Translations under genes and position numbers: made by a program
The notes under the pieces: model-generated
What the model was told of the DNA's origin: nothing
The model's input: the letters and a program-made list of their open reading frames with translations, nothing else
Databases searched by the model: none
Origin: Promethearchaeota archaeon
GTDB lineage: Archaea > Asgardarchaeota > Lokiarchaeia > Sigynarchaeales > SOKP01
Direction: 5' to 3'
Assembly: GCA_004524515.1 (NCBI GenBank)
Contig: SDNV01000123.1
Location: forward strand, 1 to 7,690
Length of the DNA stretch: 7,690 bases
Shown: positions 1 through 7,690 of the stretch, piece after piece
Position numbering within the stretch: position 1 is the first letter of the stretch
Layout of the letters: each line of letters starts with the position of its first letter

Positions 1-63
1 ATCTTTAACAGATATGTTATTATAAAAATAGCCATTTTGTCGTCCATTATCCATGTGTACCAT
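1..63 (-). CDS. Possible N-terminus of an unidentified protein, cut by the window edge
   Basis: An ATG at 63-61 on the minus strand opens 21 codons without a stop up to the window edge; the peptide begins MVHMDNGRQNGYFYNN. An in-frame TAA lies at 90-88, so ATG 63 (or TTG 72) would be the start. An AT-rich TATA-like stretch at about 82-97 lies some 25-30 nt upstream, which would suit a leaderless transcript, as for the GH57 gene in this window. There is no clear Shine-Dalgarno site. The peptide is too short to identify and may be chance. Confidence 0.3.
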   Translation of the reverse strand, partial: MVHMDNGRQNGYFYNNISVKD

Positions 64-160
64 ATTATCCAAATCTGTTAGAAAAAATTAATTAATTGTA
101 ATTGTGTTGTAGTTATATTTAAAATTACTTAAATCCGACGATATTTTGATGCAACGTGAC

Positions 161-166
161 AAAAAA
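161..166 (-). terminator. Oligo-T terminator candidate after the GH57 gene
   Basis: A run of six T on the minus strand begins about 20 nt past the GH57 stop codon, with no strong hairpin. Archaeal RNA polymerase commonly terminates at such oligo-T tracts. A second T6 lies at 82-87. The call rests on position and composition only. Confidence 0.4.
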
Positions 167-185
167 GTAGTGAGTTCCTCCATTA

Positions 186-2360
186 TTAAACGATTTTCAG
201 AATAACTCTATATTCAAATTCTTTTTTCAATTTGAATCGTAAAAGCATATTAACCCCTTGATAAATCTCTTGGTATCCTTCATCGGTAAATGCATAAGCA
301 ATTATGGGAAACTTAAATATTTTAACCGAATTTGAGTCTTCTTTTAATTCATTTTCTATTTGAAACTCTAGAGATAAACCATAATCTCCATCAAATGCTT
401 TGAAATGAGTACCAGAATATTCAAAGGCATCTAATAAAGAATTTTTAGGCTCTCGTGTATCTAATACTTGATGACTCTCCCACCTAAAGTTATTTGGATC
501 TCCATTAAAAAAGAACGGAAAGTCAATTCCTAAAAATAATTCCTCTAAAATTCTTTTTAATACGGTTTCTCTATTTGGAATTTCCCTAAATCTCCCTTTT
601 AAGATAATCTCGATTTCATTATTCATTACTTTGATTTTTTTATCAATTTCTATTGGATAGTGTTCATTTGAATCAGGTTCCCTAATCAATCCATTAAAAC
701 TCATTTCTATAACGGCTGATAAACCAGATTTTTCATTTTTTATAATTTCATATTCTCCATCAATTAGATTAGCATGTTCTTCATATTTATCGCTATGTAA
801 TTCATTTAGGTTAACATCTCTGAAGACTCGAGCTCTTAGCATGCTTCTCCTATATCGATCAGTCATTATTTTTTCTGATTCTGCTTCAAAATCGTCATGG
901 TAAGCCTCTGGCCAACGAGTCAAGGTATTTAAAATGTTATATGATTTTGGTTTGTAATCAATTTCAAATATTGTCCCTCCATCACTTGGATTTAAATAAA
1001 TATTTAACAATTCAGATTCAATTATTATATCCTCCTTACTATCTTTATTAAAATCCAATGGAATAATCGAGATATACTTGTTGGGTAAGGAGTGAACTTT
1101 TTGATTAATTGAATTGATCAAATTTTCAGCATTGATCAAATGGTTATAAACAGAGAACCTTAAGAATTGAAGGTAGACTCCTCCAAATAACCCGTGCCAA
1201 TAACAATCATTGCATTGGGCTTTATAGATCTCATCCCAAATTTTGGCTATTTCTCCCTCATATTTTGTGAATTTTGAATTTTTATAAAGCGTGTTTTCTA
1301 ACGAGATTAACTTTTCCCTAACATACAGCATTTTTTTATGCATATTATTCGATTCAGGATATTTAACGAGAAAATAACGCCAAAAACCTCCCTTTAAAAA
1401 CATGTATTCATCTTGCTTATTCGGATCATCCTTCCATTTTTTTCGTAAAGCAGCAAATTTCTTTCTTATAGGGGTTAATAGTACCCATTCTTCCATTTTG
1501 TCATAACTTGAAGTTGGCAGATAAACTAAGCCCTTTGCTGTAAATTTATTTACGCATTCTGATAGGGTTATGGAATTGATCCAATCAGTCATAACTACGT
1601 GTTTGAAAAATGTGGGAATAAATGCTTTTCCATCATCACCTTCTTGATGGCCTTCACCATCAACATAACAAATTTGATGTGTGGTGCCCCACACACCCAT
1701 CTTTTCAGCGTCAGAAATTAAAAGTGCTATTCTATCTCCTTTTTCATCCGCGACACTCTTTAAGTAGTCGATAGAAAAAGTAGTTGGTTTCCATGGTGTA
1801 AGATATCTAAGTGGTTCGTTGATGGGAAAAACACGTAGACTTTTTCCTTCATCTTCCGTGATATAGGAATATAAAGTATCTTCTTGAGAGATTCCTGTAG
1901 CACGGAAATGATTATCATCGACTATGACATACTTATATCCTACTTCACATAAAAAAGAGGGATAATTTGGTTCCCACACCCTTTCAGAAAGCCATACTCC
2001 TTTAACTTCTAAACCGAATTCCTTTTTAATTAAATCAGAAAGTTTTCTCATTTGGGCAATTGAATCTCTCACGGGGATTATTGAGTAAATTGGTTCATAA
2101 AATCCTCCCCCGATTATTTCAATCTGCCCTCTTTTAGCCATTTTTTTAATTAATGAAATAAATTCTGGTTTATTATCTATAAACCATTCTAATAAGTTTC
2201 CTGAGAAATGTAAGGTAACCTTTAAATCAGGAAATTGAAATATGCTCTTAATTAAGGGTTCATAAGATTTTTCATAAACATCTTCGAACACCCATGGATA
2301 GTTATCAACGGGTTGATGAAAGTGAAAAACAATAGGTAAATTGATTATTTTTTCGGTCAT
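186..2360 (-). CDS. GH57 4-alpha-glucanotransferase / alpha-amylase
   Basis: This 724-residue glycoside hydrolase family 57 enzyme should act in the cytoplasm (no signal peptide or membrane segment) on alpha-1,4-glucans or maltooligosaccharides. All five GH57 conserved regions are visible: HQP at residues 15-17, GGFYEP at 85-90, WLSERVWEP from 123 with E126 as expected nucleophile, SDAEKMG at 216-222 with D217 as expected acid/base, and NDCYWHGLFGG at about 384-394 in the helical domain. The order fits the Thermococcus 4-alpha-glucanotransferase group: a (beta/alpha)7 barrel to about 290, a helical segment (DUF1925-like) to about 410, then a beta-rich C-terminal domain (DUF1926-like) ending near EIYQG. 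It is somewhat longer than the roughly 650-residue Thermococcus/Pyrococcus enzymes. The ATG follows a TATA-like box by about 27 nt, suggesting a leaderless mRNA. Transferase versus hydrolase cannot be settled from sequence. The gene is divergent from a small GTPase and a maltokinase-like gene, supporting a shared role in maltodextrin or glycogen use. Confidence 0.93.
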   Translation of the reverse strand: MTEKIINLPIVFHFHQPVDNYPWVFEDVYEKSYEPLIKSIFQFPDLKVTLHFSGNLLEWFIDNKPEFISLIKKMAKRGQIEIIGGGFYEPIYSIIPVRDSIAQMRKLSDLIKKEFGLEVKGVWLSERVWEPNYPSFLCEVGYKYVIVDDNHFRATGISQEDTLYSYITEDEGKSLRVFPINEPLRYLTPWKPTTFSIDYLKSVADEKGDRIALLISDAEKMGVWGTTHQICYVDGEGHQEGDDGKAFIPTFFKHVVMTDWINSITLSECVNKFTAKGLVYLPTSSYDKMEEWVLLTPIRKKFAALRKKWKDDPNKQDEYMFLKGGFWRYFLVKYPESNNMHKKMLYVREKLISLENTLYKNSKFTKYEGEIAKIWDEIYKAQCNDCYWHGLFGGVYLQFLRFSVYNHLINAENLINSINQKVHSLPNKYISIIPLDFNKDSKEDIIIESELLNIYLNPSDGGTIFEIDYKPKSYNILNTLTRWPEAYHDDFEAESEKIMTDRYRRSMLRARVFRDVNLNELHSDKYEEHANLIDGEYEIIKNEKSGLSAVIEMSFNGLIREPDSNEHYPIEIDKKIKVMNNEIEIILKGRFREIPNRETVLKRILEELFLGIDFPFFFNGDPNNFRWESHQVLDTREPKNSLLDAFEYSGTHFKAFDGDYGLSLEFQIENELKEDSNSVKIFKFPIIAYAFTDEGYQEIYQGVNMLLRFKLKKEFEYRVILKIV

Positions 2361-2361
2361 T

Positions 2362-2384
2362 AGGTTTGAATAAGATTCAAATCT
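2362..2384. promoter_or_regulatory. Inverted repeat, candidate operator at the GH57 start
   Basis: TTTGAAT (2365-2371) and ATTCAAA (2375-2381) are perfect 7-bp arms around a 3-nt spacer. Beyond one mismatch (2364/2382) two more pairs match, giving 9 of 10 paired positions per arm. The element fills the space between the GH57 TATA box and its start codon, where a bound repressor would block initiation. The cognate regulator is unknown; the ribbon-helix-helix and winged-helix proteins encoded nearby are possible candidates. Confidence 0.4.
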
Positions 2385-2393
2385 TTAAAAAAT
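2383..2393 (-). promoter_or_regulatory. TATA box for the GH57 gene
   Basis: On the minus strand the sequence reads ATTTTTTAAAG. Its centre lies about 27 nt upstream of the GH57 ATG, the usual archaeal TATA-to-start spacing, so transcription should begin at or very near the start codon (leaderless). No Shine-Dalgarno site precedes the gene, which agrees. Confidence 0.5.
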
Positions 2394-2433
2394 CAACTAA
2401 GATAATTCCAACTTTTCGCTCTCACTAGTAAAA

Positions 2434-2445
2434 GATATAAAAAGG
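2434..2445 (+). promoter_or_regulatory. TATA box for the small GTPase gene
   Basis: GATATAAAAAGG is a good archaeal TATA element, preceded by an A-rich stretch (2429-2433) where a BRE would lie. Transcription would start near 2464-2467, giving a leader of about 27 nt. It is divergent from the GH57 TATA box some 50 bp away and probably drives the GTPase, and perhaps the kinase downstream by read-through. Confidence 0.55.
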
Positions 2446-2492
2446 ACCAAAACTAATTAAACATAAGGTTTGTACTCGGGATTTGAAAGGTA

Positions 2493-3107
2493 ATGAGTTT
2501 AAGCACCTTAGTCAAAATCAAAAGTTCTTTCAAATTAAAGGTTATAATTGTTGGAGCGGCTAATTCTGGGAAATATTCTTTTTGCTCCAAATATTCAAAT
2601 AATTTCAGTCAAAAATTTCGCGAAGTAATTGGAGTAGACATATATGTTAGAGACGAGACTCGAGATAATGGGGAAAAAGTCACTTATTGTTGCTGGAATT
2701 GTTCTCCACAAGAAAAATTCTATCATCTTTATTCCGTTTTTTTTAGAGGGGCTTTAGGGGCCTTAGTTTTCTTCGATGTCAGCAATAGACAAAGTTTTGA
2801 AGAAATAAAGGATTGGATTTTAAGAATCAGAGAACATGTAGATGGAATTCCAATATTTCTTATAGGAAATAAAATCGATTTAAAGCGAAAAGTAATATAT
2901 CAAGAAGCACTTCAATTTGCCAATCAAGAGAGGTTAGTAGCATATATTGAAACTTCAGCTAAAAAAAATATTAACATTTCAGAAACATTTGGCCTTCTAA
3001 ATGAGACAATTTATGATTTTGTTAAATCTGGAGAAAGTAGGTTTAATGTAAATCAGTTGGATCCTTCAATTAAGTTAAAAATAGATGCATTACGTGTTGA
3101 TTATTGA
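2493..3107 (+). CDS. Rab/Ras-like small GTPase with degenerate Mg2+-binding motifs
   Basis: The protein is 204 residues with a single Ras-superfamily G domain closest in style to Rab. Guanine-recognition motifs are intact: NKID at 126-129 (G4) and ETSAK at 153-157 (G5); Rab-like stretches IGVD (47-50), FFRGA (83-87) and SFEEIKDW (101-108) are clear. The catalytic half is altered. The P-loop reads GAANSGKYS (21-29), with Tyr28 where Ser/Thr is expected. Switch I reads EVIGVD, with Val46 in place of the invariant Thr. The WDTAGQE equivalent reads WNCSPQE (68-74), so the Asp is Asn69 and the Gly is Pro72, while the catalytic-type Gln73 remains. Three cysteines (66, 67, 70) crowd this switch. The C-terminus (RVDY) has no prenylation cysteine. 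It may bind guanine nucleotide without normal Mg2+-dependent hydrolysis; this is inference. ATG 2493 is the first possible start (in-frame TGA at 2484), and the AAAGG before it is unusually close (2 nt). Its function is unknown; the kinase follows 84 bp downstream. Confidence 0.93.
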   Translation: MSLSTLVKIKSSFKLKVIIVGAANSGKYSFCSKYSNNFSQKFREVIGVDIYVRDETRDNGEKVTYCCWNCSPQEKFYHLYSVFFRGALGALVFFDVSNRQSFEEIKDWILRIREHVDGIPIFLIGNKIDLKRKVIYQEALQFANQERLVAYIETSAKKNINISETFGLLNETIYDFVKSGESRFNVNQLDPSIKLKIDALRVDY

Positions 3108-3109
3108 AC

Positions 3110-3114
3110 TTTTT
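3110..3114 (+). terminator. Short oligo-T tract after the GTPase gene
   Basis: A T5 run starts 2 nt after the GTPase stop codon. It could be a weak archaeal terminator allowing partial read-through into the kinase gene. The evidence is slight because T5 runs are common in DNA this AT-rich. Confidence 0.2.
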
Positions 3115-3128
3115 CCATAGGATAAAGT

Positions 3129-3139
3129 AAATTTTAAAG
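3129..3139 (+). promoter_or_regulatory. Possible TATA box for the maltokinase-like gene
   Basis: AAATTTTAAAG lies about 55-60 nt before the kinase ATG, predicting a start near 3160 and a leader of about 30 nt. That leader contains GGTG (3184-3187), a partial Shine-Dalgarno match 4 nt before the ATG. The kinase may therefore have its own promoter as well as read-through from the GTPase gene. Confidence 0.3.
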
Positions 3140-3191
3140 AGATCGAGACTTTCTTTATTAGAAATACTTTCAAGAATACTAATGGTGTATC

Positions 3192-4925
3192 ATGTCTGAA
3201 TTTATAGATAAAAATTTAATGCAGCAAGTATTTAATTCGAATGAGTTTAAAGCGTGGTTACTCTCTAAACGATGGTTTGGGGATAAATCAACGTTATCTA
3301 ATTTAGCTTTCAAGGTTAAAATTAAATATTTTCAAAAGATTTCAACTCAAATATACTTAAACGTGATTGAAATTAACATCGAAGATTATTCCAAAGAATA
3401 TTTCTTACCATTAATCAGATATGATAAACTACAAGAGATTTTAGAGCCTAAAGAAAGAAAAAGAGAAGTAATCACGGCTCTTACGGAAAGTTCATTTAGT
3501 AAAATAATTGCGTTAGAAATGGTAGAGAACATTCAAGATCAAGTACTCCCTCTTAATTTAGTAGAAGCAGAATATTGCGTGCTATTTTGGAAAAAACTCT
3601 TATTTGACAAGAAGATATCTGAAATGTTTCCATCAATGAAGTTAGAACTCTCTTTATATGATGAGCAATTTGAAGATGACCAATATCTTGTAAAAGCTCG
3701 GAATCTTATAGAAGCTGGTTTATATCCGGACAAATATGATCTCTCTCTTGAAAAAATTGGAGGAGGTAATACCACTAATGTATTATTTTTACTCAACCTC
3801 TACAAAAAAGACAAAACTGAAATTGAAAGTTCATACGTATTGAAATCTTATAAAGAATTTTCAGAGAGAATTGAACCACGTACATTATTTGTTTTAGTAA
3901 AAAACAAATTTCCAAATTCCCCCAAAATCTATGGGATGGTAAAAATTTTGGGGATAGAATCAGTCGGAATAATCGAGAATGTCAAAAATAGTGGTAATCT
4001 TGGAGATATTTATTGGAGAGAAGTATATGAAATGATAAACGACGTATTTAAAAACATCAACGATGATTATACCTATTTCCGCGATAAAGAAGAGAAAAAT
4101 AATACGATTAAATATTATTGCGTCGAAAGCTTGAAAGTATCAGCAGAAATTGGATTAGAAATTAAAAATCTTCACAAAGCATTGAGATTAGAGGGAGACG
4201 ATCATTACTTTAAAGAAAGGGTAAATAGCAAGGAATATCTTGATAATTATTCTGCAAAATTAGAAAAAATGGTAAATGATATTCAAAATAAAATCGGGAG
4301 AAACACAGATAAAACCTTTTATAACTCCCCAAAAATAGGATCGATCTTGCTTGATATTAAAGATATCATCCAAAAACTTAAGACTGAATTTGATTTCGAA
4401 CAGATCACCATTCAACCCGTACATCAAGACCTCCACATGCAACAAATTTTATATAATCGAGAAAATGGGAAATATAATTTCTATTTTATTGATTTTGAAG
4501 GAGACCCACAATTAACGCTAAAAGAAAAAAAGAGTAGATATCCGATTGAAAAAGATCTTGGTTCTTTCTTGAGATCTCTAAGTTATATTAAGTTTCAGAC
4601 CCTTTTAAATTATATCGAGAAGAAAATTATCAAGAAAGACAGATTTGAAGTGCCTGAAGAGGTCCTGTTTACAACATTCTTTAGAAAATCTGCTAAAATC
4701 ACAAAGAATCAGGGATTACTAGAGGCTGTATTGAACTTATTAAATTCATGGGAAGAGAAAATGATGGTAAAAATTTTTAATAAGAATTTAAAACTTCATT
4801 TTACATTGATTAATTATTATTCAATTGAACGAGCACTTCACGAACTTGAATATGAGTTGCTTTTTAGACCCAATAAAATGATTATTCCAATCTTGGGTTT
4901 AAAGGAAATTATTGATAAAGGATGA
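3192..4925 (+). CDS. Maltokinase-like sugar kinase (APH/protein-kinase-like fold)
   Basis: This 577-residue protein has the architecture of maltokinase, which makes maltose 1-phosphate from maltose and ATP. The N-terminal cap carries the family hallmark LLSKRWFGDK (23-32). The kinase part begins with a glycine-rich loop GGGNTTNV (190-197), followed by the ATP-lysine candidate K218 in YVLKSY. The catalytic loop is HQDLHMQQ (411-418, catalytic Asp413), and the metal-binding motif is IDFEGDP (433-439, Asp434). PIEKDLGSFLRSLSY (451-465) and the last helices, ERALHELEYE to RPNKMIIPILGL, also match the family. It is longer than the roughly 440-455-residue mycobacterial enzymes; the extra length appears to lie between the nucleotide loop and the catalytic loop. 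Glucosamine kinases share this fold and motifs, so substrate is not certain. No trehalose synthase or GlgE maltosyltransferase gene is present here. The neighbouring GH57 enzyme could supply maltose or short maltodextrins. The stop codon abuts that of the convergent regulator gene. Confidence 0.85.
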   Translation: MSEFIDKNLMQQVFNSNEFKAWLLSKRWFGDKSTLSNLAFKVKIKYFQKISTQIYLNVIEINIEDYSKEYFLPLIRYDKLQEILEPKERKREVITALTESSFSKIIALEMVENIQDQVLPLNLVEAEYCVLFWKKLLFDKKISEMFPSMKLELSLYDEQFEDDQYLVKARNLIEAGLYPDKYDLSLEKIGGGNTTNVLFLLNLYKKDKTEIESSYVLKSYKEFSERIEPRTLFVLVKNKFPNSPKIYGMVKILGIESVGIIENVKNSGNLGDIYWREVYEMINDVFKNINDDYTYFRDKEEKNNTIKYYCVESLKVSAEIGLEIKNLHKALRLEGDDHYFKERVNSKEYLDNYSAKLEKMVNDIQNKIGRNTDKTFYNSPKIGSILLDIKDIIQKLKTEFDFEQITIQPVHQDLHMQQILYNRENGKYNFYFIDFEGDPQLTLKEKKSRYPIEKDLGSFLRSLSYIKFQTLLNYIEKKIIKKDRFEVPEEVLFTTFFRKSAKITKNQGLLEAVLNLLNSWEEKMMVKIFNKNLKLHFTLINYYSIERALHELEYELLFRPNKMIIPILGLKEIIDKG

Positions 4926-5525
4926 TCATTCTTCTTCCAATTGCATGAACTCATAGGTATAATGAGACTCTGAACGGTTAACTTCCGTGAAATCTTTCAT
5001 ATATTTTGAATTTAGACTTTTATTATTATCTAATTTTTCTTCAATGTAATTGGGATTCATTTCTTCTTCTTTGAAAAAACGAAAAAGAAATGATTCAACA
5101 AATTTCTTAGGTCCAAATTTTTTTGAGACTAATACGTAATTTTCTTCATCAATGAATTTTTGGAAGAATCCTAAATTATCGCATATATCTAACTTATAAT
5201 TTAAGTCATCACTTTTACCGGTAATTCTTGAGATATCGTTAACAAATCGCGCTAATTTATCCCCTAATAAAATTTGATATTTTTCCTCCAAACTCTCAAA
5301 AATTTTTCGCAAGAAACTCCGTTTTATTATTATAAATTCTCTATTACTGAAGGATTTTACTGAATTTTTCTCTTTTATTAAATACTTTGATAGTTCAAGA
5401 TAGTTTCGTATTAATTCCGCTTTAGATAATCCTAAGCGATGCTTTAGCTTATTAATATTTTCATCTAACTCTTTATCAATCCTTATTGTTATAACACTAG
5501 TTTCTGGTTTTAGATTATTACTCAA
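4926..5525 (-). CDS. Ribbon-helix-helix regulator with an unrecognised C-terminal domain
   Basis: The 199-residue protein opens with a ribbon-helix-helix (CopG/MetJ-type) DNA-binding domain. The beta strand TSVITIRID (9-17) is followed by helices KELDENINKLKHRLG (18-32) and SKAELIRNYLELSKYL (34-49). RHH proteins bind DNA as dimers through the strand pair. Residues about 60-155 form a mixed helical region ending in KKFGPKKFVESFLFRFF, which I do not recognise; it could bind a ligand or a partner. The tail (155-199) is acidic and probably flexible. The start is TTG: an in-frame TAA lies three codons upstream, no other plausible start precedes the RHH strand, and a GAGGTG Shine-Dalgarno site sits 10 nt upstream. 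Most CopG-type antitoxins are under 100 residues and adjoin a toxin gene. None is seen here, so a transcriptional regulator is more likely. Its targets may include its own promoter or the adjacent sugar genes (inference). Confidence 0.8.
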   Translation of the reverse strand: MSNNLKPETSVITIRIDKELDENINKLKHRLGLSKAELIRNYLELSKYLIKEKNSVKSFSNREFIIIKRSFLRKIFESLEEKYQILLGDKLARFVNDISRITGKSDDLNYKLDICDNLGFFQKFIDEENYVLVSKKFGPKKFVESFLFRFFKEEEMNPNYIEEKLDNNKSLNSKYMKDFTEVNRSESHYTYEFMQLEEE

Positions 5526-5535
5526 TTTTAGTTAG

Positions 5536-5541
5536 CACCTC
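5536..5541 (-). promoter_or_regulatory. Shine-Dalgarno site fixing a TTG start
   Basis: GAGGTG on the minus strand is a strong match to the archaeal anti-Shine-Dalgarno and lies 10 nt before TTG 5525. With the in-frame TAA between them, it makes TTG the best start for the RHH regulator. Confidence 0.6.
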
Positions 5542-5585
5542 AATTTAGGAAGGTAAATCTTGTATTAAATTGTAGTCTATAGTAA

Positions 5586-5597
5586 TGATATATATCA
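5586..5597. promoter_or_regulatory. 12-bp palindrome at the likely RHH gene promoter
   Basis: TGATATATATCA is a perfect 12-bp palindrome 61-72 nt upstream of the RHH start. Its ATATATAT core can also serve as a minus-strand TATA box, with a start near 5565 and a leader of about 40 nt. A palindrome on the TATA box fits autoregulation by an RHH dimer, but alternating A/T sequence gives palindromes easily. Confidence 0.35.
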
Positions 5598-5617
5598 AAA
5601 GTAATTAAATAATTGCA
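5595..5617 (+). repeat. 23-nt repeat, copy 1
   Basis: It reads TCAAA, one variable base, GTAATTAAATA, two variable bases, then TGCA. It matches copy 2 (6000-6022) at 20 of 23 positions in the same orientation. It overlaps the end of the 12-bp palindrome on the RHH-gene side of the gap. Confidence 0.45.
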
Positions 5618-5999
5618 TTTGAAAGAGATTTGAATGGAATTTTTTTCCCATAAAATTATCTTAATACTGTTAAAATATTGACTATTAAATAATTAATTTT
5701 AATAAAGATATAGGCATATTTCTAGCTTTAGATTCTTACATTAAAACTTAATTAATTGGATTCTAAATTTATCAACTGAATTTTCAATACAATCACAAAT
5801 TTTTATTTTAGCTTTATTACCTTATATATTAAATAAATAACCTTTTAACTAAATATTGTATAGATCGTCTCATCTTATATTAGAAAGATTAACGTTCCAA
5901 CCGAAATAAGCGGTTTTATAAGAGATTTATTTAGTCTAGCATAAGATATTATTAGGACATAAATTGTAATATATTTTAAGTTTCTAGGAATTTGTTATG

Positions 6000-6022
6000 T
6001 CAAATGTAATTAAATATATGCA
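6000..6022 (+). repeat. 23-nt repeat, copy 2
   Basis: This is the second copy of the element at 5595-5617, 405 bp away, about 113 nt upstream of the winged-helix start codon. The two copies flank the central part of the gap, one beside each regulator gene, which suggests binding sites for a common regulator. Low sequence complexity weakens the case. Confidence 0.45.
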
Positions 6023-6080
6023 ATCTAATAAATGGATTACAAACGAATCAGTGATTAGATTTAATAATCTTCTTTTTTTT
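6022..6080 (+). terminator. Hairpin followed by T8, possible terminator of a small transcript
   Basis: AATCTAAT (6022-6029) pairs with ATTAGATT (6054-6061). Inside, GATT (6035-6038) pairs with AATC (6046-6049) around a 7-nt loop. A T8 run follows at 6073-6080. This could end a transcript made from the AT-rich gap. The stem is weak and A/T-rich, and the T tract also forms the upstream edge of the TATA region of the next gene. Confidence 0.25.
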
Positions 6081-6087
6081 ATAATTT
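6077..6087 (+). promoter_or_regulatory. TATA box for the winged-helix regulator
   Basis: TTTTATAATTT is a TATA-like element about 50-58 nt before the ATG at 6135. A start near 6107 would leave a leader of about 28 nt containing AAGGG (6117-6121), a Shine-Dalgarno-like run at a rather long 13-nt spacing. Confidence 0.4.
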
Positions 6088-6134
6088 ATTGAGATACCGT
6101 TAATGTTCTTATTATTAAGGGTTGAATATCGTAT

Positions 6135-6494
6135 ATGGAATTGACAGAGACAAATTTCTCCGAAGAAACAGAAATCCAAGATGTTATAGCGTTAAAATTG
6201 GAAGAGTCTAATGGAAGATCTTTAATTGTTGATTCAGATGATAAAATTGAATTGATAATGAAAGCATTATCATCAACAACACGTCGAAAAATCCTGCATT
6301 ACATACAACAATGTGAAGAAGGGTTAGATGTTTCAAATATTGCCGCTCAGTTAGATATGACAGAAGCTAATATCTCTGCCCAAATAAAAAAATTAAAAAA
6401 GGCAGGACTAATTGAATGTGACTATTGCTCGGGACAACACGGGGTTCGAAAGATAAGTAAATTAAAATATAATAACTTAATCATTAGCTTTTAA
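6135..6494 (+). CDS. ArsR-like winged-helix transcriptional regulator
   Basis: This small (119-residue) cytoplasmic DNA-binding protein has a leading acidic arm (1-35), then the ArsR-type core. The first helix is KIELIMKALSSTTRRKILHYI (37-57). GLDVSNIAAQLDMTEANISAQIKKLKKAGLI (63-93) supplies the helix-turn-helix, with the recognition helix at about 76-90. The wing is CDYCSGQHGVRKIS (95-108), followed by a short terminal strand ending LIISF. The SSTTRRKIL and KKLKKAGLI stretches are typical of archaeal and bacterial ArsR-family regulators. C95, C98 and H102 form a CxxCxxxH pattern in the wing, with C60 elsewhere, which could be a metal or redox site; the classical ArsR metal motif is absent. 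The ATG is the best start, with a TATA box upstream. It is separated from the RHH gene by the 610-bp gap and converges on the helical-repeat gene. The target and effector are unknown. Confidence 0.85.
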   Translation: MELTETNFSEETEIQDVIALKLEESNGRSLIVDSDDKIELIMKALSSTTRRKILHYIQQCEEGLDVSNIAAQLDMTEANISAQIKKLKKAGLIECDYCSGQHGVRKISKLKYNNLIISF

Positions 6495-6544
6495 TAATTT
6501 TAACTCCAAATAACAGTTGGTTCTGGTAATTAAATCCAGGGAAT

Positions 6545-6552
6545 AAAAAAAA
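6545..6552 (-). terminator. T8 terminator of the helical-repeat gene
   Basis: Eight consecutive T on the minus strand lie about 28 nt past the stop codon of the gene ending at 6581. A small stem, CTGG (6523-6526) with CCAG (6536-6539), lies just beyond. Archaeal termination at T tracts makes this the likely transcript end. The facing winged-helix gene has only T4 runs after its stop. Confidence 0.5.
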
Positions 6553-6580
6553 GTATTAATAAAATCTCAATTCTTCTGTT

Positions 6581-7582
6581 TTACATAAAATGTGAAACCA
6601 AAGTATTCTTGATTTTTTCAAAATGACCAAGATTGACTTTTAAAAGAGCATTAAGACTGTCTCTTAATCCCATTTTTTCAATTTTTTTGGTGATCTTAAA
6701 ATAAGGACTATTTTTTAGAGCCTTGATCAATGCTTTATTATCTTCAATGTCCTCTAAAAGATACTCATTACACGCTGTTTCTTCGAAATTCATTATACGT
6801 TTTACAATCGCGAGCAACATTGTATCAAAAGTTATTCTCAAGATAACTTCCCTGTCAAAATCTGGTTTTTTTGGAGAGAGATACTCCTTCATTAATGAAA
6901 TTGATTCTTGGAAGAGTTCAATAGAATTTTGTCCGAGTTCTGCAATTTTCTTTTCTTCATTTTTATCTCCTAAAGCAACTAAACATATTGCCGATACAGT
7001 TTGGTATTCTGCTACAAAATGAATAAATCTTGCCTTAGCATTGAGAATCGTGTCTTTAGAATCAACATCACTCAATATTTCATCTATACTATCAAGAGAT
7101 TTTCTAAAATATGAAGATATTTCGAGGAATTTTTCTGCAGCCGCTTTAAATTGCTCAGTACTTATTAGTTGATGAGCTCGTTTTTCTTCTTGTCCATAAA
7201 GTTCGTGGAATTTATTAATCTTCATAACCGATTTTAAAATCAATTCTTTTCCAAGATCTTTAGTTTGCGGAGCCCTTTCGTATGATTGCCCCGCTTTTAA
7301 CAATAAAATTGAAGATAAATTCAAATACTCTTCTGGATCTGTTTCATAAAAATATTCTGATGCTCTGTTCCAACTTTCTCCAGCAGTTTCCCAGTCATTC
7401 ATTCTATATGAAATATTACCCAATTGTACCAACAATTTTGCTGAAATCTCATATAATTTTAATTCTTCTGTTTTACGGATAATTGATTTTAGTCGATATA
7501 CAGCCTGTATGTTATTTTTAAACTGCGAGATAATCATGGTGATGCGAATAAACAATTCATCTAATTTAAGATAACTCCCCAA
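6581..7582 (-). CDS. TPR/alpha-SNAP-like helical-repeat protein, N-terminus interrupted
   Basis: The open stretch codes for 333 residues made almost entirely of amphipathic helices. TPR-like helix pairs are clearest early: AKLLVQLGNISYRMNDWETAGESWNRASEYF (48-78), then LLLKAGQSYERA (93-104) and EQFKAAAEKFLEISSYF (143-159). Such solenoids usually mediate protein-protein contacts. The layout resembles alpha-SNAP-like proteins, but that is a resemblance, not an identification. There are no membrane segments or signal peptide. The frame does not really begin at TTG 7582: 15 further sense codons precede it (7583-7627, reading EAIKLYEQAAQIYLD, a good TPR helix), then a TAA, then more TPR-like sequence to the window edge. 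The first in-frame ATG is at 7537, already inside the repeats. No Shine-Dalgarno site supports TTG 7582. The gene is therefore probably a fragment of a longer, broken or misassembled gene. It ends in a T8 terminator and converges on the ArsR-like gene. Confidence 0.7.
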   Translation of the reverse strand: MGSYLKLDELFIRITMIISQFKNNIQAVYRLKSIIRKTEELKLYEISAKLLVQLGNISYRMNDWETAGESWNRASEYFYETDPEEYLNLSSILLLKAGQSYERAPQTKDLGKELILKSVMKINKFHELYGQEEKRAHQLISTEQFKAAAEKFLEISSYFRKSLDSIDEILSDVDSKDTILNAKARFIHFVAEYQTVSAICLVALGDKNEEKKIAELGQNSIELFQESISLMKEYLSPKKPDFDREVILRITFDTMLLAIVKRIMNFEETACNEYLLEDIEDNKALIKALKNSPYFKITKKIEKMGLRDSLNALLKVNLGHFEKIKNTLVSHFM

Positions 7583-7690
7583 ATCAAGATAGATTTGAGC
7601 TGCTTGTTCATATAATTTAATTGCTTCTTATCCCTTTCCACCGTCTGCAAGCGTTTCAGCTTGATCTATAAGTTTAATTGCATTAGCTTC
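7583..7690 (-). pseudogene. Upstream part of the helical-repeat gene with an in-frame TAA
   Basis: In the same frame as the 6581-7582 gene, the minus strand from the window edge reads EANAIKLIDQAETLADGGKG, then TAA (7630-7628), then EAIKLYEQAAQIYLD running straight into GSYLKLDELF. Both sides are TPR-like, and the phrase G-K-G-stop-EAIKLYEQA matches a repeat in which the stop replaces one residue, probably Glu (GAA to TAA is one change). The upstream part has no stop up to the edge. This means a nonsense mutation, a sequencing or assembly error, or a decayed gene; its real start lies outside the window. Confidence 0.65.

Follow-up and report, generated by a model that had tools for sequence, protein, structure and literature searches.

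A Lokiarchaea-associated Rab-like family that lacks the G3 Asp and Gly and keeps its guanine site: a probable pseudoGTPase

Introduction

What becomes of a Rab-like GTPase when the residues that hold Mg2+ and contact the gamma-phosphate are lost and those that recognise guanine are kept? This question is raised by an open reading frame (ORF) at 2493..3107 of a 7,690-nucleotide stretch of DNA from Promethearchaeota archaeon (assembly GCA_004524515.1, contig SDNV01000123.1, positions 1 to 7,690 of the forward strand), which is the window analysed here. A sequence-only reading of this ORF had proposed that its Mg2+/gamma-phosphate residues were lost together, under selection for a pseudo-GTPase that binds nucleotide constitutively, independently of Mg2+, or as a scaffold. 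We find that the Asp and Gly of the DxxG (G3) motif are absent from all 66 members of the family to which the protein belongs, and that the guanine site is conserved. The remaining switch residues vary among members. The many Rab-like GTPases of Asgard genomes are usually taken for molecular switches and for precursors of membrane traffic in eukaryotes; this family is probably neither switching nor hydrolysing.

Results

The protein has the following features, given by their window coordinates.

2493..3107, forward strand: candidate pseudoGTPase ORF, 204 amino acids (aa), ATG start, Rab-like G domain followed by a C-terminal helix
2553..2576, forward strand: P-loop GAANSGKY, residues 21-28; Gly26 and Lys27 are kept, and Tyr28 stands in place of the Mg2+ ligand Ser/Thr
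2625..2627, forward strand: switch I Val45 in place of Thr, within REVIGVDIY (residues 43-51)
2694..2714, forward strand: degraded G3 motif WNCSPQE, residues 68-74, with Asp replaced by Asn69 and Gly by Pro72
2868..2879, forward strand: guanine-recognition motif NKID, residues 126-129
2949..2963, forward strand: G5 motif ETSAK, residues 153-157
3063..3092, forward strand: C-terminal helix, residues 191-200, assigned by DSSP on the AlphaFold2 model and lying beyond the Pfam Ras match

The Pfam profile PF00071 (Ras) matches the whole G domain (119.9 bits across residues 16-173, cut-off 21.6). The best PDB sequence matches are human Rab35 (E 8e-28), Rab3 and Rab11, and the nearest named relatives come from metagenome-assembled genomes of Lokiarchaeota/Promethearchaeota. 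The AlphaFold2 model, built with 113 sequences, has a Rab fold (predicted local distance difference test 88.5, predicted template modelling score 0.86); its top Foldseek match is Rab8a (5szi_A, E 1.1e-16), and the best 50 rows of both Foldseek and VIA-align are Rab-type and related small GTPases. The motifs named in the sequence-only reading (GKY, WNCSPQE, NKID and ETSAK) were confirmed in the 204-aa frame, and its switch I Val46 is in fact Val45. We take positions 28, 45, 69, 72 and 73 to be the equivalents of Ras S17, T35, D57, G60 and Q61. Compared with an active Ras-type GTPase, G1 ends in Tyr, G2 carries Val and G3 reads NxxPQ, with G4 and G5 intact.

The family was bounded by score gaps, and motifs were not used. 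A protein search gave 110 matches with a break after the 41st (query included), where E goes from 4e-46 to 5e-27. A profile made from those 41 proteins, in which 25 columns are invariant, gave 315 matches with an E-value of 1e-25 or lower; among the best 120 of them, a break from 202 to 151 bits set the limit at 66 members. Searching genome contigs for orthologues with the single protein returned no match, and the family alignment as query succeeded. In a quick maximum-likelihood tree of 96 rows, with long branches flagged in the outgroup rows, the 43 family rows form one group with a support of 100 in the Shimodaira-Hasegawa-like approximate likelihood ratio test (SH-aLRT), and their stem is 1.05 changes per site long. 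The best matches outside the family, P0042-P0046, have 36-41% identity to the 204-aa protein, and two of them, P0042 and P0045, group on the tree with L098 of Loki genome G005. A sequencing error or decay confined to one copy does not account for the changes; the protein is a member of a genuine, well-separated family. None of the 66 members, a few of which are short and perhaps incomplete, has a Cys in its last 10 residues, so prenylation in the manner of eukaryotic Rabs is not expected.

The DxxG Asp is found in none of the 66 members (Asn 27, Val 21, Thr 12, Leu 2, Ala 2, Ser 1, Lys 1), nor is the Gly (Pro 51, Ser 13, Thr 2). The P-loop Gly26 and Lys27 are kept in all 66, as are Asn126 and Lys127 of NKxD; Asp129 is present in 65 (one Glu), and so is Ser155 of G5, the remaining sequence having a gap there. 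Thus, an orthologous clade does share the DxxG loss yet keeps the P-loop Lys and the Asn-Lys of NKxD, which supports this part of the sequence-only reading. Among the best 120 of the 315 profile matches, 54 lie below the family; the 53 that were scored all keep both Asp and Gly, and the single unscored one, P0055, reads WDIGGQ. Since Asp and Gly are absent from the whole family, they were presumably lost in its stem.

The other switch positions behave differently. Ser/Thr at position 28 is retained in 28/66, and the other 38 members have Ile, Asn, His, Leu, Lys, Tyr, Ala or Gln, with Tyr28 in only two. Position 45 of switch I is Thr in 24, Ser in 34 and another residue in 8. The four Mg2+/gamma-phosphate ligands are all absent, with no hydroxyl residue at either 28 or 45, in 5/66 (P0001, P0002, P0004, P0006 and P0009, the 204-aa protein included), and the exact Tyr/Val/Asn/Pro set occurs in the 204-aa protein alone, one of 43 tabulated rows. 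The Mg2+/gamma-phosphate residues were thus not lost together: Asp and Gly are gone throughout the family, whereas the Ser/Thr of the P-loop and the Thr of switch I vary. The catalytic Gln (position 73), said to remain, does so in the 204-aa protein, but in only 37/66 of the family, and no single substitute residue is conserved at position 69 or 73.

The distribution of changes on the 43-member tree follows the same division. G21, G26, K27, N126, K127, D129 and S155 show no change on it. The P-loop Ser/Thr column has 11 changes (94th percentile of 159 columns) and the switch I Thr column has 7 (79th percentile); the catalytic Gln column also stands at the 94th percentile of change within the family. 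In canonical relatives these three columns are at the 13th, 8th and 13th percentile, respectively; those canonical rows that came from loci were picked for an intact G3, which makes the Asp and Gly columns on the canonical side partly circular. The variation at the P-loop Ser/Thr, the switch I Thr and the Gln points to a released constraint at the switch, and not to selection for a specific Mg2+-free site; joint selection of such a site is not supported. We read this as a single loss of DxxG in the stem, after which constraint on the other switch residues was relaxed and that on the guanine site maintained.

Cys67, which precedes the invariant Trp, is present in 64/66 members, and Cys31 and Cys70 occur in 32 of 43 rows each, as a possible new site (window positions 2691-2702 for residues 67 and 70, and 2583-2585 for residue 31). 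Residue 31 is not strictly coupled to 70, as P0041 has Ser31 with Cys70. It is possible that Cys67, Cys31 and Cys70 form a metal or disulfide site.

Selection was estimated as pairwise Nei-Gojobori ratios of nonsynonymous to synonymous substitution (dN/dS) for ten DNA copies (45 pairs, 14 of them saturated). The reading frame is open in all ten copies. The 20 computable long-range pairs give dN/dS of 0.11-0.27 at dS of 1.4-2.8, which is near saturation; among the pairs of the window gene, those with L003-L007, L066 and L067 give 0.20-0.27 (dS 1.5-2.3, also near saturation). The L066-L067 pair has a dN/dS of 0.109, and the L001-L002 pair 0.198, with an interval reaching 0.97. The earlier observation that the switch was lost without decay of the frame or of the guanine motif is thus upheld, with 10/10 open frames and an NKxD that is near-invariant in 66 members.

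Other Ras-family proteins were surveyed in the Loki genomes G001, G005 and G007, where 127 of 142 matches were fetched, giving 121 distinct domains with readable motif columns. Ninety-five of these domains are fully canonical at the four Mg2+/gamma-phosphate positions. Seven lack both Asp and Gly, three of the seven being each genome's family member, and 36 depart from [NT]KxD. By these motif counts, unrelated paralogues have lost the switch too; more of them keep G3 and vary the guanine motif, whereas the family does the opposite. Nine Asgard Ras-family ORFs outside the family lack the G3 Asp and/or Gly (L013, L036, L074, L178, L201, L211, L212, L018 and L019), the guanine motif being also lost in L018 and L019. 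All except L212, which is off the tree, fall outside the family on the quick tree; because G3-degraded ORFs lie outside the clade, pseudo-GTPases seem to have arisen several times.

A further group of paralogues is altered at the guanine motif. Among 38 ORFs listed, 30 have Ser, Gly or Ala for the Asn of [NT]KxD, many with an intact G3. Examples of departure from this motif are L105, L107, L132 and L166; in L160 G3 is intact and only the guanine motif is altered, to GSKLD. Loki paralogues departing from [NT]KxD may have an altered base specificity.

In a survey of 227 genomes of the phylum, with up to 13 candidates scored per genome, 9 carry a member of the family (>=297 bits; next match 158); the genomes are drafts as far as visible, and absences may be gaps. 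In 7/7 carrier genomes a single copy scores 313-351 bits and the next paralogue <=146 bits; the profile matches 28-50 proteins in each genome. The neighbours of the gene in the window are as follows.

186..2360, reverse strand: GH57 4-alpha-glucanotransferase-like gene, 724 aa, divergent (PF03065 147.6 bits; 1k1w E 1.2e-109)
3192..4925, forward strand: maltokinase-like downstream neighbour, 577 aa (TIGR02457 92.9 bits, under the cut-off of 375)
6581-7582, reverse strand: tetratricopeptide repeat (TPR)-like ORF, 333 aa, TTG start, with an in-frame TAA upstream at 7628-7630

The maltokinase-like protein matches maltokinase 4u94 (E 8.5e-8) over residues 398-473. Beyond its gene lie a ribbon-helix-helix gene, a gene for an ArsR-type regulator and the TPR-like gene, which has no Pfam match. 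Homologues of the latter in L001-L003 and L005-L007 have 379-380 aa, and in the window the frame reopens past the TAA stop and there matches L001 closely; the ORF is either a truncated gene or the product of a sequencing error.

The order GH57, candidate pseudoGTPase, maltokinase-like is kept in L001-L007 as far as the contigs extend; L002 and L001 have one or two opposite-strand ORFs inserted ahead of the maltokinase-like gene. L089 lacks the GH57 gene at this position, and L090 stops at a contig edge. The family gene is upstream of the maltokinase-like gene in 10/10 family loci, and immediately so in 8. All 9 carriers are among the 68 genomes with a maltokinase-like gene (chance 1.3e-5, uncorrected for kinship), a coincidence of little weight, since both genes occur only in related genomes. 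On the tree of the maltokinase-like protein, the presence of the family gene needs at least 4 changes.

The gap between the GH57 and maltokinase-like genes holds differing inserted ORFs at other loci (L001:1580-4026, L002:4123-4494, L260, L262 and L263), and it looks like an insertion hot spot. An origin by a mobile element was considered and rejected: in the alignment with G145, a genome from which the family gene is missing, no target-site duplication is clearly visible, and such repeats as occur are imperfect and differ among copies.

Discussion

The pseudo-GTPase idea is well supported by the sequences, given that the G3 Asp and Gly, whose absence is the relevant family trait, are missing in 66/66 and the guanine site is conserved. 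We follow the definition of pseudoGTPases in PMC5593906, which describes (i) proteins that do not bind nucleotide, such as p190 pG1/pG2 and CENP-M, (ii) proteins that bind without hydrolysis, such as Rnd, and (iii) proteins active despite degraded motifs, such as RGK. It is fairly probable that we are dealing with a Lokiarchaea-associated pseudoGTPase family, working as a non-switching binding module with a static guanine nucleotide. Contacts to the base, the ribose and the alpha- and beta-phosphates would hold the nucleotide, most likely GDP, or GTP that is neither sensed nor hydrolysed. The gamma-phosphate contacts would be gone, Pro72 offering no backbone NH. As these contacts are lost and those with the base and the beta-phosphate are guarded, the nucleotide would be a structural cofactor, with the switch regions fixed and hydrolysis absent, and the protein would bind a partner protein without acting as a switch. 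Our guess is that this partner could be a product of the alpha-glucan locus or a regulator of canonical paralogues. Binding that is constitutive or independent of Mg2+ is plausible.

Several observations weigh against this proposal. Losses of Asp or Gly do not seem to be confined to the family: among the 69 lower matches of the first search, 61 have both residues, 2 are gapped and 6 lack one or both. The P-loop Ser/Thr is present in 28/66 members and a switch I hydroxyl in 58/66, so that some members may still bind Mg2+. As the MglA family shows, absence of the Asp is not in itself proof of an inactive protein, and structure comparison of the AlphaFold2 model did not distinguish a GDP-like from a GTP-like state. 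Selection is also uneven. Ten pairs within the L003-L007 subclade have dN/dS of 0.26-0.78, and in a bootstrap of eight of these pairs the 95% interval excludes 1 in four and includes it in four; five neighbouring genes give 0.11-0.28 for the matching pairs. The expectation of a dN/dS well below 1 is therefore borne out over long range, but not throughout. Purifying selection over long times is what these ratios indicate, but in L003-L007 it is looser than on the neighbouring genes.

The loci point in the same direction. There are 59 genomes with a maltokinase-like gene and no family match, and 20 of their loci were examined. In 18 of them the GH57 and maltokinase-like genes are present with no pseudoGTPase gene (15 adjacent, 3 with intervening ORFs), and the other 2 stop at contig edges. 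The GH57-maltokinase-ribbon-helix-helix backbone thus also exists without the family gene, L260 not having been read as far as the ribbon-helix-helix gene. Furthermore, G145 nests among L003-L007 on the maltokinase-like tree, and both of its flanks are 88% identical to G007, with the family gene cleanly deleted: the two blastn segments share 23 bases where they join, and tblastn found no remnant of the gene at this locus. From the 18 loci and the clean deletion it follows that the family gene is accessory, not core. A strong functional tie to the alpha-glucan genes is weakened by the persistence of the same backbone in those 18 loci; co-location may be only by descent, and the neighbourhood is weak functional evidence.

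Of the alternatives, one that we regard as unlikely, although it deserves attention, is a class (i) pseudoGTPase that binds no nucleotide, like p190RhoGAP pG1/pG2 or CENP-M, in which NKxD and GK would serve the fold only. Such a protein could well have bulky or charged residues at position 28, where Mg2+ and the beta-phosphate sit, and these are frequent there (38/66 non-Ser/Thr). However, K27, G26, N126, K127 and S155 do not change on the 43-member tree and D129 differs in a single member of 66. Moreover, with 36 of the 121 Loki domains departing from [NT]KxD, this motif seems unnecessary for the fold. The conserved GK and NKxD argue against class (i), and class (ii), binding without hydrolysis, is likely for the 204-aa protein.

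It is quite improbable that the family consists of atypical active GTPases, in which hydrolysis would depend on other residues or on a partner that contributes an arginine or glutamine, a mechanism put forward for some proteins of the MglA and RGK types. There are precedents for activity with an altered G3: MglA-family motifs read TVPGQ or GTPGQ, and CvnD9, of the GTPGQ group, is reported to have GTPase activity (PMC4316618); the RGK motif is DXWE (PMC4081519), and class (iii) is described as retaining activity (PMC5593906). The P-loop Ser/Thr and switch I hydroxyl kept by part of the family fit this possibility as well. The MglA motifs, however, keep the Gly that is absent here in all members and replaced by Pro in 51/66, and the catalytic Gln is free to vary (37/66) with no conserved substitute at 69 or 73.

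We attach a comparably small probability to a dominant-negative decoy, which would occupy an exchange factor, a roadblock-type GTPase-activating protein or an effector of Rab-like paralogues and so dampen them. With 28-50 profile matches per genome there would be many paralogues to dampen, the accessory distribution suits a modulator, and loss of the P-loop Ser/Thr resembles mutants of the Ras S17N type. Nevertheless, Ser/Thr is kept in 28/66, and no Pfam match to such a partner was found among the six window proteins scanned. Finally, that the gene is a former GTPase under little or no selection and heading for loss is very improbable, since the subclade dN/dS of up to 0.78 (4/8 bootstrap intervals including 1), the clean deletion in G145 and the patchy presence, with at least 4 changes on the neighbour's tree, are set against 10/10 open frames, long-range dN/dS of 0.11-0.27 in 20 pairs, 25 invariant columns in 41 proteins and a guanine motif near-invariant in 66.

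If the non-switching, nucleotide-holding module that we favour is real, the number of GTPase genes would not equal the number of switches, and the G domain would have been reused as a non-catalytic module already in archaea. We advance only tentatively the broader idea that the Asgard GTPase expansion holds pseudoGTPases of archaeal origin, independent of the eukaryotic ones, here with a static and possibly Mg2+-free nucleotide as cofactor of a scaffold of the alpha-glucan locus. If this is true, G proteins that do not switch would be older than those of eukaryotes or would have arisen in parallel with them. The members that keep the P-loop Ser/Thr and those that lack it form a natural series for studying the Mg2+ dependence of nucleotide binding, and G145 is a natural deletion for genome comparison.

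PseudoGTPases of this kind are already known from eukaryotes, and by its motifs the archaeal family is apparently a new variant; no prior Asgard or archaeal pseudoGTPase family appears among the titles and abstract openings listed by searches of the open-licence literature. The Asgard Rab-like GTPases have in common with it the Rab fold, NKxD and ETSAK. A 2016 paper terms archaeal Rabs apparently active (PMC4915359), and phosphate release by the Asgard protein Thor-Rab is much like that by Rab11B (PMC10933270), whereas here the G3 Asp and Gly are missing from 66/66 members, and the Mg2+ ligands and catalytic Gln from many. The same work surveyed 74 GTPases from one Asgard genome, and the parts consulted say nothing of lost G3 motifs (PMC10933270). 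The likeness to the Rnd family (class ii) lies in expected properties: from the motifs kept and lost, nucleotide binding is expected to be retained and hydrolysis lost. Rnd proteins, however, are reported to hold GTP permanently (PMC5593906), and here the gamma-phosphate contacts are lost.

The p190RhoGAP pG1/pG2 domains and CENP-M (class i) likewise have a GTPase fold with lost G motifs, but the family keeps the G1 Lys, G4 and G5 intact. RGK proteins (Rad, Gem, Rem) keep G4 and G5 and have a degenerate G3 with the Gly replaced, as does the family. They differ in retaining the Asp within DXWE (PMC4081519) and, as described, their activity (PMC5593906), whereas the family G3 reads [NVTLASK]xx[PST] and falls outside the RGK form. 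MglA resembles the family in having a G3 without Asp, but its TVPGQ and GTPGQ motifs keep Gly and Gln (PMC4316618), in contrast to NCSPQ here and to the absence of the Gly in 66/66. EhRabX10 of Entamoeba is also Rab-like and was called a pseudoRab from its sequence; its four G motifs are non-conserved, G4 being altered as well (PMC8514894), whereas G4 is kept in the Lokiarchaea-associated family.
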